The notes beneath the pieces are model-generated. The model was not told the origin of the DNA. It saw only the letters and a program-made list of their open reading frames with translations, and did no database searches. Of a DNA stretch of 64,000 nt, positions 25,496 to 29,709 are shown piece after piece. Each line of letters begins with the position of its first letter. Position 1 is the stretch's first letter. The stretch comes from Geothrix edaphica (GTDB lineage Bacteria > Acidobacteriota > Holophagae > Holophagales > Holophagaceae), in NCBI RefSeq assembly GCF_030268045.1, contig NZ_BSDC01000002.1, forward strand, positions 310,001 through 374,000. The letters are read 5' to 3'. The position numbers were made by a program, and so were the translations under genes.

Positions 25496-26146
25496 CTCCA
25501 TCACCCGGTCGCAGAGAGCCTCGACGGCCAACCCATCGTGGCTGGCCAGCAGGAGGGCCGTGCCTTCGGCCTTGAGATCCAGGAGCAGGGCCAGCAGGTG
25601 GCCCGCCAAGGTGGGATCCAGGGCCGAGAAGGGCTCGTCGAGCACCAGCAGCGCCGGCTCCAGCATGAGGGCCCGCCCCAGGCAGAGGCGCTGGGCCAGA
25701 CCCCCGGACCAGGCCCCGGGCCGCTGAGCCAGGGCCGCCTCCGGGAACTTCACGCGCGCGGCCATGCGGGCCGCGGCCTCCCGCCGCTCCATGTCCGTGC
25801 CCCGGTTCCAGATCGCCAGGGGCTCCTGGAGGATCTCCCAGCCCGTGCGATGGGGGGGCAGGCTGGCCTGGGGATCCTGGAACACGGCCTGGATCCGCGG
25901 ACGGCGGAGGCGGCGCTCCCGCTCCGGCAGGGGCGACCAGGGCGCGCCCTCCAGCAGGATCCGGCCCTCCGTGGGCTCCAGGAGCCCCAGCACCAGGTTC
26001 AGCAGGGTGGTCTTGCCCGCACCGCTCGCGCCGGCCACGCCCAAGGCTTCGCCCTGGTCGATAGAAAAAGAGACGTTCTTGAAGACATTCTTTCCCAGGC
26101 GCTGAAGCCGCAGGCCTTCAGCGCAAAGGACGGGCCCTGCCCTCAG
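25454..26146 (-). CDS. ABC transporter ATP-binding protein, probable CTG start
   Basis: The 230-aa protein is a complete ABC ATPase: Walker A GASGAGKTT, Q-loop in QAVFQDPQ, signature WSGGLAQRLCLGRAL, Walker B LLVLDEPFSALDP and H-loop LLASHD. It most resembles the DppF/OppF/NikE subgroup of peptide or nickel importers. No permease or binding-protein gene is adjacent. No ATG, GTG or TTG exists in frame before the conserved beta strand without running about 250 nt into serS in another frame. A CTG at 26146 overlaps the serS stop (CTGA) and has a nearly perfect Shine-Dalgarno sequence. The last 12 residues come from an intergenic repeat. Confidence 0.8.
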   Translation of the reverse strand: MRAGPVLCAEGLRLQRLGKNVFKNVSFSIDQGEALGVAGASGAGKTTLLNLVLGLLEPTEGRILLEGAPWSPLPERERRLRRPRIQAVFQDPQASLPPHRTGWEILQEPLAIWNRGTDMERREAAARMAARVKFPEAALAQRPGAWSGGLAQRLCLGRALMLEPALLVLDEPFSALDPTLAGHLLALLLDLKAEGTALLLASHDGLAVEALCDRVMELSAISCQLSVTES

Positions 26147-27411
26147 CGGATCACCTCGACGCCCAGGTAGGGCCGCAGGGCCTCGGGCACCACGATGCTG
26201 CCGTCGGGCTGCTGGTAGTTCTCCAGGATGGCCACCCAGGTGCGGCCCACGGCCAGGCCGCTGCCATTCAGGGTGTTCACGAAGGCGGGCTTGCCCTCCT
26301 TGCCCTTCATGCGGATGTTGGCGCGGCGGGCCTGGAAGTCGCCGAACCAGCTGCAGGAGCTGATCTCCCGGTAGGTGTTCTGCGAGGGCAGCCACACTTC
26401 CAGGTCGTAGGTTTTCTGGCTGCTGAAGCCCATGTCGCCCGTGCAGAGCAGCACGCGCCGGTACGGCAGGCCCAGGGCCTCCAGGATGGCCTCGGCGTTC
26501 TCCGTGAGGCGCTCCAGCTCGGCCTCGGCCTGGTCGGCGGCGGCGAAGGTGACGAGCTCCACCTTGTGGAACTGGTGCTGGCGGATGATGCCCTTGGTGT
26601 CCTTGCCGTAGCTGCCGGCCTCGCTGCGGAAGCAGGGCGTGAAGGCGCAGTGGCGCAGGGGGAGGGACTCCGCGGCCAGGATCTCGTCGCGGTAGAGGTT
26701 GGTGACGGGCACCTCCGCGGTGGGGATGAGGTAGAGCGCGGCGCCGTCCCCGCGGGAGGTCTTGAAGAGGTCCTGCTCGAACTTGGGCAGCTGGCCCGTG
26801 CCGTACATGCTCTCGGCATTCACCAGGTAGGGCGGGATCACCTCGGTGTAGCCCGCGGCGGTCTGGCGGTCGAGCATGAAGCTGATGAGGGCCCGCTCCA
26901 GCTTGGCCCCCAGCCCCTTCAGCACGGCGAAGCGCGCACCGCTGAGCTTGGCCGCGCGGTCCAGGTCGAGGATGCCGAGGGCCGTGCCCAGATCCACATG
27001 ATCCCGGGGCGCGGCGATCTCCGGGAGCTGCCCCCAGCGCCTGACCTCGACATTGGCGTGCTCGTCGCGGCCTGAGGGCACACTGGCGTGGGGCGGGTTC
27101 GGAATGCCTGCCAGGAAGTCTTTGAAGGCCGCCTCGATCTCGCGCTCGGCCGCCTCGAGGGCCTTCAGCTGATCGCCCACCTCCCGCTGCTGGGCGATGA
27201 GGTGGTCGGCGTTCTCCTTCGCCCGCTTGAGGCGGCCGACCTCATCACTCACACGGTTGCGCTCGGCCTTCAGGGCCTCGGCCTCCTGGAGCGCGGCGCG
27301 GCGGCGCTGGTCCAGCTCCTGGTAGCGCGCCCGGTCCAGCGTATAGCCACGCTCGGACAGGCGCGCCGCCACGGCGTCGAGGTCGGTGCGGAGGAGGTTG
27401 GCGTCGATCAT
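26143..27411 (-). CDS. serS: Seryl-tRNA synthetase
   Basis: SerRS charges tRNA-Ser (and tRNA-Sec) with serine. The 422-aa class II synthetase begins with MIDANLLRTDLDAVAARL and the long antiparallel coiled-coil arm (about 30-105) that grips the variable arm of tRNA-Ser. Class II motif 2 is seen in FRSEAGSYGKDTKGIIRQHQFHKVE-type sequence (about 265-290) and motif 3 in SGLAVGRTWVAILEN near the C-terminus. The ABC ATPase gene overlaps its stop by 4 nt. Upstream lies a perfect 16-bp hairpin and a duplicated 123-bp unit. Confidence 0.97.
   Translation of the reverse strand: MIDANLLRTDLDAVAARLSERGYTLDRARYQELDQRRRAALQEAEALKAERNRVSDEVGRLKRAKENADHLIAQQREVGDQLKALEAAEREIEAAFKDFLAGIPNPPHASVPSGRDEHANVEVRRWGQLPEIAAPRDHVDLGTALGILDLDRAAKLSGARFAVLKGLGAKLERALISFMLDRQTAAGYTEVIPPYLVNAESMYGTGQLPKFEQDLFKTSRGDGAALYLIPTAEVPVTNLYRDEILAAESLPLRHCAFTPCFRSEAGSYGKDTKGIIRQHQFHKVELVTFAAADQAEAELERLTENAEAILEALGLPYRRVLLCTGDMGFSSQKTYDLEVWLPSQNTYREISSCSWFGDFQARRANIRMKGKEGKPAFVNTLNGSGLAVGRTWVAILENYQQPDGSIVVPEALRPYLGVEVIR
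26144..26157 (-). promoter_or_regulatory. Ribosome-binding site that supports the CTG start
   Basis: On the minus strand GAGGTGATCC (26157-26148) is a ten-base match to the complement of the usual 16S rRNA 3' end (TAAGGAGGTGATCC). The space from GAGG to the CTG at 26146-26144 is 7 nt, which is ideal. The site lies in the last codons of serS, so initiation is likely coupled to serS termination. Confidence 0.6.
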
Positions 27412-27443
27412 GTCGGTTTTCCCAGTGACCTATCAGTCTACCT

Positions 27444-27478
27444 AGCTCCAAAACGCGCCATGGGCGCGTTTTGGAGCT
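27444..27478. terminator. Perfect 16-bp stem-loop between asparaginase and serS
   Basis: AGCTCCAAAACGCGCC, the loop ATG, and the exact reverse complement GGCGCGTTTTGGAGCT form a 35-nt hairpin 33 nt upstream of the serS start. It lacks a run of T after the stem, so it is not a textbook terminator, but it can end the upstream minus-strand asparaginase transcript or act in the serS leader. Confidence 0.55.
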
Positions 27479-27510
27479 GGCCTCCGGCGATGCTCAGGCT
27501 TGCGGCCAGG

Positions 27511-27756
27511 GCCCTCCCGACCATGTGGGTCGCGGAACAGGCTGCGGGGCAGCCTGTGGAGCGGGGTCCCACAGGGAGGGAATCACGCAGCCCTCAGGCT
27601 TGAGGCCAAGCTCCATCCGGGCTGGGCTCTCCGGCCCTCCCGACCATGTGGGTCGCGGAACAGGCTGCGGGGCAGCCTGTGGAGCGGGGCCCCACAGGGA
27701 GGGAATCACGCAGCCCTCAGGCTTGAGGCCAAGCTCCATCCGGGCTGGGCTCTCCG
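27511..27756. repeat. Tandem duplication of a 123-bp structured unit
   Basis: Copy 1 (27511-27633) and copy 2 (27634-27756) differ at a single base (T27567 against C27690). Each begins with a 69-nt segment closed by CCCTCCC/GGGAGGG, enclosing GACC/GGTC and the perfect 9-bp hairpin ACAGGCTGC-GGG-GCAGCCTGT, which is a multi-branched fold. Copy 2 overlaps the last 13 codons of the asparaginase gene. A degenerate fragment of the unit's end (CTCAGGCTTGCGGCCAG) precedes copy 1 at about 27492. Unit length equals 41 codons and has no stop in one minus-strand frame. Confidence 0.9.
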
Positions 27757-28724
27757 GCCCACTGTACCCGGAACGCCTCCCGCACCTCGTCGATGCCGCC
27801 CCCGGCGCCCAGCACCAGGCCCAGCTTGGCGAGGGCCGCCCAGCGGGTGGACAGGCCGCCGGAGATGGCGCCCATCTCCTCGATCCTCCGGCCCATTTCG
27901 TAGGCCGAGAGGTCCACGCCGCCATAGGGGCACTGGGAGATCACCACCACGGGCAGCCGCCGCCGGCGCGCATCCTCCAGCATCGCCCGGAGGTCTGCGC
28001 GGCCCATGGGCAGGTTGCCGGCGCCGAAGGCCTGGATCAGGACGGCCCGGGCCCCCTGGGGCGCCGGATACCAGGCCATGCCCGGGTGGGGCGTCAGGGT
28101 GTGGATGGCCAGGTCCAGGCGGTCGCCCAGCCCCGCGGGCACCTGCCGCACGAACTGGCCCACCTCGGGGTGCAGGCGGATCTCCGCCCCGATCTCGGCC
28201 AGGGGCGGCAGGTTCGGACTCTGGAAGGCCTCGAACTGGTGGACGCTCAGCTTGTCCGCCGCCACCCCCCGGATCCAGTGGGTGCCGAAGCAGATCCCCA
28301 CCTCGGGGATGCCGCGGCAGGCCAGGTCCACCGCATTGACGAGGTTGCTGCGGGCGTCGCTGCGGACAAACGCCAGCGGTCTTTGGCTGCCCGTGAGCAC
28401 CACGGGTTTGCCCAGGTCCGCCAGCAGGAAGCCCAGGCAGGAGGCCGTGAAGGCCATGGTGTCCGTGCCGTGGATGATGACGAAGCCGTCGAATTCCTGG
28501 GCCGAGGCCCGCACCCGCGAGGCCAGCATCAGGATGTGCTCCGGCTCCAGGCAGGAGGAGTCCTGGTTGAAGGGCACCTCCACGGACAGCCTCGCCATCT
28601 GGCCCAGCTCCGGGACCTGCTCCAGCAGGTGGTCCAGGAAGCGCCCCGGGGCCAGGGCCGCCGGATCGCCGCTCGGCATCATGCCCAGGGTGCCGCCCGT
28701 GTGGAGGAGGAGGATCGTCCGCAT
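27717..28724 (-). CDS. ansA: Asparaginase, type I
   Basis: Asparaginase hydrolyses L-asparagine to aspartate and ammonia in the cytoplasm. The 335-aa protein has the two catalytic threonine motifs of the family: LLLHTGGTLGM (T12) and IIHGTDTM (T87, D88). It lacks a signal peptide, and its length agrees with E. coli type I enzyme (338 aa). The C-terminal residues EPSPDGAWPQA are encoded by the second copy of the 123-bp repeat, so the natural end of the protein may have been altered by the duplication. It diverges from the DUF1275 gene. Confidence 0.92.
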   Translation of the reverse strand: MRTILLLHTGGTLGMMPSGDPAALAPGRFLDHLLEQVPELGQMARLSVEVPFNQDSSCLEPEHILMLASRVRASAQEFDGFVIIHGTDTMAFTASCLGFLLADLGKPVVLTGSQRPLAFVRSDARSNLVNAVDLACRGIPEVGICFGTHWIRGVAADKLSVHQFEAFQSPNLPPLAEIGAEIRLHPEVGQFVRQVPAGLGDRLDLAIHTLTPHPGMAWYPAPQGARAVLIQAFGAGNLPMGRADLRAMLEDARRRRLPVVVISQCPYGGVDLSAYEMGRRIEEMGAISGGLSTRWAALAKLGLVLGAGGGIDEVREAFRVQWAGEPSPDGAWPQA

Positions 28725-28797
28725 GAGAGGAGTCTACCGTCTGGGCGCCGGTCCCAGGCCACCGGCCGGCCCCGACCCAGTAGACTGGAATCTCTGC

Positions 28798-29709
28798 ATG
28801 CGCCGCATTCCCCGCTATTTCCAGATGATCGCAGGCCGCTACCTCCGGCGCCTGTTGAGGAAACGCCTGTCGGGCCATCAGTTGCAGGCGGCCGTGGAGA
28901 CGGCGCTGGCCACCCTGCCCATCCAGGAGAAACTCCTGGTGCGCGAAGGGGCCCTGCGCTCGGAATCGCTCAACCGGCAGCTGGCCTGGGCCATGGCCTT
29001 CGTGGCCGGAGCGGTCAATGCCGGTGGCTTCCTGGCCGTCAGCCACTACACCTCGCACGTGACCGGCGTGGTCTCCTCCATGGCCGACGAGCTGGCCGAC
29101 GGCGACCTCGCCACCGCCCTCGCGGCCCTGGCCATGATGCTGAGCTTCCTCGCGGGCGCCTTCGTCTGCACCACCCTGATCAGCCTCGGCCAGCGCCGGC
29201 GCATGCGCAGCCGCTACGCCCTGACCCTCGTGCTGGAGGCCGTCCTCATGATGGTCTTCGGCTTCATGGGGAACCGCCTCCAGCAGGAGATCCGCTTCAC
29301 CCTGCCCAGCACCGTCATGCTGCTCTGCTTCATCATGGGCATGCACAACACGGTCACCTCCATCATCTCGGGCGCCGCGGTGCGCACCACGCACCTCACG
29401 GGCACGGTCACCGACATCGGCATCGAGCTGAGCCGCCTGACCTACGTCAATGTCCACCACCGGCATGGCCGGGAGCGCATCGTCGCCAACCGCCAGAAGC
29501 TCACGCTGCTCCTGCTGATCCTGGCCTCCTTCATGGCCGGTGGCGTGACGGGGGCCCTCGGGTTCCGGCACATCGGCTTCAAGATCACCGTGCCCCTGGC
29601 AGGCTTCCTCTGTTTCCTGGCGGCCCGGCCGCTGCTGCTGGAAGTGCGCCTGTTGCTGCACCGCCTGCGTCGCCAGTGGGATCCCGATCGCCCCACCCCC
29701 GGCCGCTGA
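28798..29709 (+). CDS. DUF1275 (YoaK-family) membrane protein
   Basis: The 303-aa protein begins with a basic cytoplasmic segment of about 65 residues, longer than usual, followed by six membrane helices. The family signature is FVAGAVNAGGFLAVSHYTSHVTGVVSSMA. A second diagnostic stretch, IMGMHNTVTSIISGAAVRTTHLTGTVTDIG, confirms the YoaK/DUF1275 assignment. The function of this family is unknown. The preceding long reading frame in the same phase overlaps the opposite-strand asparaginase and is not coding. It converges with the next gene across a CAGCTGACAG repeat. Confidence 0.88.
   Translation: MRRIPRYFQMIAGRYLRRLLRKRLSGHQLQAAVETALATLPIQEKLLVREGALRSESLNRQLAWAMAFVAGAVNAGGFLAVSHYTSHVTGVVSSMADELADGDLATALAALAMMLSFLAGAFVCTTLISLGQRRRMRSRYALTLVLEAVLMMVFGFMGNRLQQEIRFTLPSTVMLLCFIMGMHNTVTSIISGAAVRTTHLTGTVTDIGIELSRLTYVNVHHRHGRERIVANRQKLTLLLLILASFMAGGVTGALGFRHIGFKITVPLAGFLCFLAARPLLLEVRLLLHRLRRQWDPDRPTPGR

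Follow-up and report, generated by a model that had tools for sequence, protein, structure and literature searches.

A dispersed Holophagaceae hairpin whose 3' foot is, in about half of its copies, the exact start of a duplicated flank

The window, i.e., the whole 64-kb stretch of Geothrix edaphica DNA analyzed here, carries on its minus strand an asparaginase gene followed by the gene for seryl-tRNA synthetase (serS). The end of the asparaginase gene lies in a tandem repeat, whose adjacent 123-bp copies occupy 27510-27632 and 27633-27755 and differ by a single mismatch, T27567/C27690; the TRF score of this repeat is 495, and the six other TRF rows in the window score 53 to 81. On the minus strand the 123-nt unit divides into 52 nt, here called D, and 71 nt, here called E, and the order from the asparaginase body outward is D, E, D, E, and a partial D. 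The features are as follows.

27717..28724, minus strand: asparaginase gene (Pfam PF00710 and PF17763), whose 3' end is the duplicated segment
27709..27760, minus strand: D, 52 nt, composed of the final 44 nt of the asparaginase gene, stop codon included, and then an 8-nt spacer; it abuts E at each end (distance 52)
27638..27708, minus strand: E copy 2, gene proximal, 71 nt, TGATTCCC...GGTCGGGA; covariance model R1, 99.5 bits, and fold
27586..27637, minus strand: second D, identical to the first; its start abuts the 3' foot of E copy 2
27515..27585, minus strand: E copy 1, 71 nt, differing from copy 2 at one base; covariance model R1, 97.8 bits
27493..27514, minus strand: 22-nt fragment of a third D, abutting the 3' foot of E copy 1
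26143-27411, minus strand: serS, next after asparaginase

An earlier sequence-only reading had described two adjoining 123-bp copies with a one-base difference, an asparaginase C terminus supplied by the second copy, and a degenerate third fragment before the first. All of this holds: the mismatch is the one given above, the asparaginase open reading frame terminates inside copy 2, and the third fragment repeats some of the gene-end portion and is probably the oldest of the displaced gene ends. We read the window as a fresh tandem case, D-E-D-E with a partial third D. Between asparaginase and serS there is also an inverted repeat whose 16-bp arms match perfectly around a 3-nt loop (27444-27478), possibly a terminator, and a similar inverted repeat is present at the same place in several Geothrix genomes.

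A BLAST-type search of the genome itself, one of the checks suggested by that reading, returned the two window copies, one degenerate copy (E value, 6e-4), and 16 short weak matches. At an E value of ≤1, some match to the repeat occurs in 51 of 60 genomes, the window's own included, and the strong matches are mostly to E. A covariance search across Holophagae, also suggested there, showed E to be dispersed, with strongly covarying stems. With a model built from 22 copies, E is found in 46 of 47 Geothrix genomes at an E value of ≤0.01, with at most 26 matches each and 8 in G000. At ≤1e-4 it is present in 58 of 93 genomes of the class, namely, 45 of 47 Geothrix (up to 25 matches) and 13 of 30 other Holophagaceae genomes, and in none of the 16 class members outside Holophagaceae. 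A phylum sample of 149 genomes gave 11 matches, 10 in Geothrix and 1 elsewhere in Holophagaceae, and a degenerate-pattern scan recovered 13 stretches, from Geothrix terrae, G. oryzisoli, G. campi, G. rubra, G. fermentans, further Geothrix, and one Holophagaceae metagenome-assembled genome. E is therefore a dispersed element restricted to Holophagaceae among the genomes searched. Plasmids and phages gave no match at blastn sensitivity and no viral contig had an exact match to one degenerate E pattern, so a plasmid or phage origin was dropped. Among the literature matches listed, no repeat of this kind in Geothrix was found.

The sequence-only reading had offered three options for the 123-bp unit, and the closest of them is a repeat family in the act of spreading: the 71-nt E is indeed a dispersed, covarying family. 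The part that has spread is E and not the 123-bp unit: a host gene end and 8 nt make up the remaining 52 nt, and at many loci the duplicated flank is the locus's own. Since E is dispersed, covarying, and present in relatives, the repeat is not just a local duplication. At loci whose genes were readable by eye, E adjoins gene boundaries.

The E consensus is a single unbranched imperfect hairpin of ~71 nt with unpaired positions between its stems: a foot TCSC/GSGA, then CC/GG, TGTGGG/CCCACA, and CGC/GCG, followed by a 9-bp top stem. Changes on both sides were found in 15 of the 24 pairs, and 97.8% of cells are paired (22 sequences, 21 distinct); neither value was reached in any of 500 shuffles, and slid versions pair in at most 45.2%. 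Part of this covariation could come from quasi-palindrome correction, without function. In DNA folding, the strand of E copy 2 gave -19.4 kcal/mol (z -3.8) and the opposite strand -23 (z -4.65). A tRNA-like or cloverleaf fold is excluded by the covariation, so the cloverleaf outline drawn from the window alone gives way to one hairpin. The 7-bp closing stem proposed with it, CCCTCCC/GGGAGGG, survives in part: 4 bp form the conserved foot, and the other 3 bases lie in the duplicated flank, beyond the conserved element.

The two remaining options for the unit, a structured RNA or a 3' untranslated region element, find no support. An Rfam search of 26000-29500 at an E value of ≤5 gave two matches, both under the gathering score and neither over the repeat, and a known structured RNA was accordingly rejected. 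Among 88 E copies, 2,015 of 2,081 cells are Watson-Crick, 19 are G-U, and 31 are A-C; G-U is thus not favored, and these counts lend no support to an RNA role on this strand. Some E copies, moreover, precede gene starts in antisense orientation, the genes behind them being, from inspection by eye, presumably miaB and a MerR-like regulator.

Where do the flank duplications begin with respect to the hairpin? The joint was scored by comparing 300-nt flanks, with a score of ≥14 as the threshold for a repeat and with the 3' boundary of E fixed from the alignment before the flank statistics. Of 148 E copies (88 from 80 loci, 58 from further loci, and two from the window), 146 were usable, two having too little flank. 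The loci had been chosen by model or BLAST score, and the flanks of some had already been seen beforehand; 88 of 124 matches were kept in the first set, 58 of 69 in the second, and 22 of 24 in a third set apart from these 148. Three dropped rows of the first set outscored the weakest kept row, two without a repeat at threshold and one flush at base 0, and the others were weaker or lay on the opposite strand of a better match.

A flank repeat is present in 95 of the 146 copies. The repeat of the upstream flank begins exactly at base 0 after E in 73 of the 146 and within 1 base in 75, and it is this that is new here: in about half of the E copies, the flank duplication starts exactly at the 3' foot. 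The 5' side is flush in 16 copies, 10 of which are flush at both ends, as in tandem units. The other 20 repeats begin neither at the joint nor within one base of it, and 51 copies have no flank repeat at threshold. Control pseudo-elements shifted by 250 bases, which adjoin the real repeats and may owe some of their own to them, have a flank repeat in 38 of 285 cases, with 7 flush at the 3' side (6 at base 0), 13 at the 5' side, and none at both. The 75 flush cases (74 with enough flank) represent 31 target contexts, some of which share a gene; within the 300 nt searched, the start of the repeat precedes E by 28 to 279 nt, and 20 of the 31 context medians lie at 38 to 67. The 4-bp foot is fully complementary in 145 of 170 E copies and occurs there in 12 different sequences, and since the foot varies in sequence yet stays complementary, the joint goes with structure.

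The unchanged model was also applied outside Geothrix, to 11 copies in four genomes that represent three genera, where the offset is 0 in seven, 1 to 2 in three, and 5 in one (the copies at offsets 1, 2, and 5 include three that score under 14). Eleven further Geothrix copies gave five at offset 0, one at offset 3, and five without a repeat at the joint. At the start of D, position -1 is A or T in 23 of 31 families, +3 is T in 16, and +9 is A in 17; these positions fall largely in codon phase, and for this reason no recognition motif is claimed. A likeness of the D start to the last 9 bases of E was weak and shift dependent and was dropped. D length and spacer length are anticorrelated (r -0.59, 21 families), a relation not used as evidence because a fixed total length would produce it.

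The asparaginase 3' end was compared in 30 Geothrix genomes, one cut by a contig end, with E called by eye. E stands 7 to 8 nt past the stop codon in G000, G007, G032, G021, G008, and G017, an apparent remnant is seen in G002 and G003, and 21 other genomes have no E within 330 nt. The empty ends (G024, G025, G006, and G029 among others) are unduplicated and bear the tail that, in filled genomes, follows D', the gene-end copy behind E. Because this second gene end runs into the same native sequence as the empty sites (G017 versus G024 and G025; G021 versus G029), the added part is spacer plus E. Counted from E, the duplication starts at a distance of 51 to 52 in G000, G007, G032, G021, and G023, 51 in G008, and 22 in G017, and the tandem stage is found in G000 and G007. 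A constant E position with a differing duplication start fits an old insertion with renewed duplication, and it fits repeated insertion as well. On the asparaginase gene tree (29 rows), E requires at least 5 gains or losses, 4 of them forced by well-supported branches, and its presence is no more clustered than shuffled labels; this pattern is compatible with gain or with loss by D-D' recombination and does not separate the two.

Other loci show the same turnover at different stages. At the end of a gene that we take, by eye, to encode a threonine-dehydrogenase-like protein, the site is contiguous in 13 of 23 genomes and filled in G008 and G006, with duplications of ~149 and ~82, respectively; in the remaining genomes the match is in the gene alone or absent from the matches listed. 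At the end of a presumed hexapeptide-protein-like gene, likewise named by eye, the spacer from stop codon to E is common to several species, which makes E old at this place. There G025 has D, spacer, E, D, spacer, a truncated E, and a short older gene end and is an intermediate stage, and in G006 and G017 the short end is accompanied by a truncated E. At one locus, D' begins at the same base in five species (G032, G024, G061, G022, and G025), and D and D' are 89 to 99% alike within a genome, compared with 76 to 88% for D between genomes. D' was here either remade in the same place or kept alike by conversion, and the likeness within genomes could be gene conversion. Because D and D' stay alike within genomes at this locus, where the five species share the D' start, dating by D-D' identity was dropped. 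G205, which belongs to a different genus, has two E copies with identical 107-nt D segments and a third fragment of 30 nt and so shares the anatomy of the window at the tandem stage.

We consider it fairly probable that E is a structured DNA element, that gene-end duplications are joined at the foot of its hairpin, and that they arise by the following steps. E would act as folded single-stranded DNA; a cut or stall would occur at its foot, and the 3' end of E would be joined to a site some tens of nucleotides upstream. Upon insertion, this would leave a long, variable target duplication; later, it would yield a tandem duplication of gene end, spacer, and E with one end fixed at the foot. The right-hand hairpin would then often be lost by recombination between the direct repeats, leaving E with an orphan gene end. 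The order of events would be insertion with a short duplication, later tandem duplication, and still later hairpin loss, with the window as a fresh tandem stage of this cycle. Dispersal and the empty sites suggest that E reached its sites by transposition. On a more tentative note, E may be the core of an undescribed mobile or duplicating element, in which a structure-defined hairpin base is joined to an upstream cut and the host gene end is copied at each event.

A stationary E could alternatively stall replication or be opened by a hairpin nuclease, of which an SbcCD-like enzyme is the kind meant, with error-prone host repair duplicating the upstream flank. We regard this as rather unlikely, although several observations agree with it: most E-bearing genomes yielded neither a Y1 transposase nor an RVT_1 reverse transcriptase, tandem D-E units recur (the 10 copies flush at both ends), and per locus the position of E is common to species while the duplicated length changes. 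However, host repair leaves unexplained the spread of a 71-nt family with conserved unpaired bases to 31 target contexts and the exactness of the joint at one foot only, and Ku, the usual end-joining protein, was found in 1 of 47 Geothrix genomes.

If a structured DNA element is preferred, how does it compare with known families? E works somewhat like a REPIN or a miniature inverted-repeat transposable element (MITE) and fails a defining test of each family tested. MITEs are small and noncoding, with imperfectly inverted termini and flanking direct repeats, and E is alike in these respects. Unlike the MITE of a DDE transposon, E has no fixed short target duplication, given the variable start of its repeat, and the flanking repeat is usually flush at one end only. 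MIRU, ERIC, and RPE are dispersed structured repeats near gene ends, as E is, but they are not known to be related to E in sequence or to make more than short target duplications.

It is improbable that E moves as a REPIN-like element, with a Y1 tyrosine transposase working on the hairpin in single-stranded form. According to passages of PMC3116915, REPs and REPINs are short hairpins in many copies that form tandem clusters including flanks, and in this E resembles the REP/REPIN and RAYT system. E differs in that it is one long unbranched hairpin and not two inverted REP palindromes, that its gene-end duplication is flush at one foot, and that no Y1 transposase was found in most carriers: Y1_Tnp (PF01797) occurs in 5 of 47 Geothrix genomes and was not found in G000 or in the E-rich G006, G017, G001, and G008.

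A SINE-like retroposon, in which target-primed reverse transcription inserts an RNA that has E at its 3' end, would account for one exact and one ragged end and for the long, variable target duplications. It is quite improbable, as RVT_1 was detected in 14 of 47 Geothrix genomes, with none found in G000, G001, G008, or G017, and E has no G-U excess.

An integron attC-type site, with gene end and E as a mini-cassette, is the least probable of these readings: passages of PMC3053210 describe attC as folded, with conserved unpaired bases and at the 3' end of a head-to-tail unit, like E, and an integron integrase is above the cutoff in 29 of 47 Geothrix genomes, yet the RYYYAAC and GTTRRRY core sites by which attC is defined there occur in 0 of 170 E copies on either strand, and the E "cassette," unlike integron cassettes, is the local gene's own end. 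In 19 of 30 integrase loci (L377-L407), the genus has attC-type sites of its own (GCCTAAC...GTTAGGC, often 124 bp), a family unlike E, and on 3 of the 30 IntI loci the E model gave two weak matches (19.7 and 17.1 bits). The integrase of G000 lies outside the window (G000:C3:557586-558482), and attC-type sites were not found at its locus. The complete genome G067 has 17 E matches, integrase in broken pieces alone, and no RVT_1, but has Y1 and Ku. None of Y1, RVT_1, Ku, and integron integrase goes with E, single absences being weak since many genomes are drafts.

Small dispersed hairpins are common in bacteria, and to our knowledge their movement outside RAYT systems is mostly unexplained. The recent duplication and the fold noted in the sequence-only reading are both real, but gene end and hairpin were taken there as one unit; the main interest lies in the hairpin family and in a joint that is one-sided and defined by structure, with a proposed mechanism at the DNA level. 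Named species such as Geothrix fermentans carry the family, which offers a sharp, testable rule, namely, that duplication starts at the base of the hairpin, and this rule would let the mechanism be caught by sequencing. At the loci read, E accounts for the duplication and replacement of gene ends and leaders. If E is such an undescribed mobile or duplicating element, it would rewrite gene 3' ends and 5' leaders across Holophagaceae by means of an enzyme new to such a role.

Some loci depart from the gene-end pattern. At L100, L147, and L148, E copies stand head to tail with a period of ~70 nt and no gene segment between them, which is a second way of amplification. At the hexapeptide-protein-like end of G008 (L275, G008:C9:69295-70100), one full E is preceded by an array of ~31-nt units, in each of which a truncated 5' part of E is combined with a few more bases. 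An E subfamily with a GCGC-type foot lies beside a GCCCGGCCC-rich inverted repeat at L120, L124, L131, L138, L139, and L153; its flanks are similar in several genomes, and the flank repeat, where seen, begins 0 to 3 nt after E.
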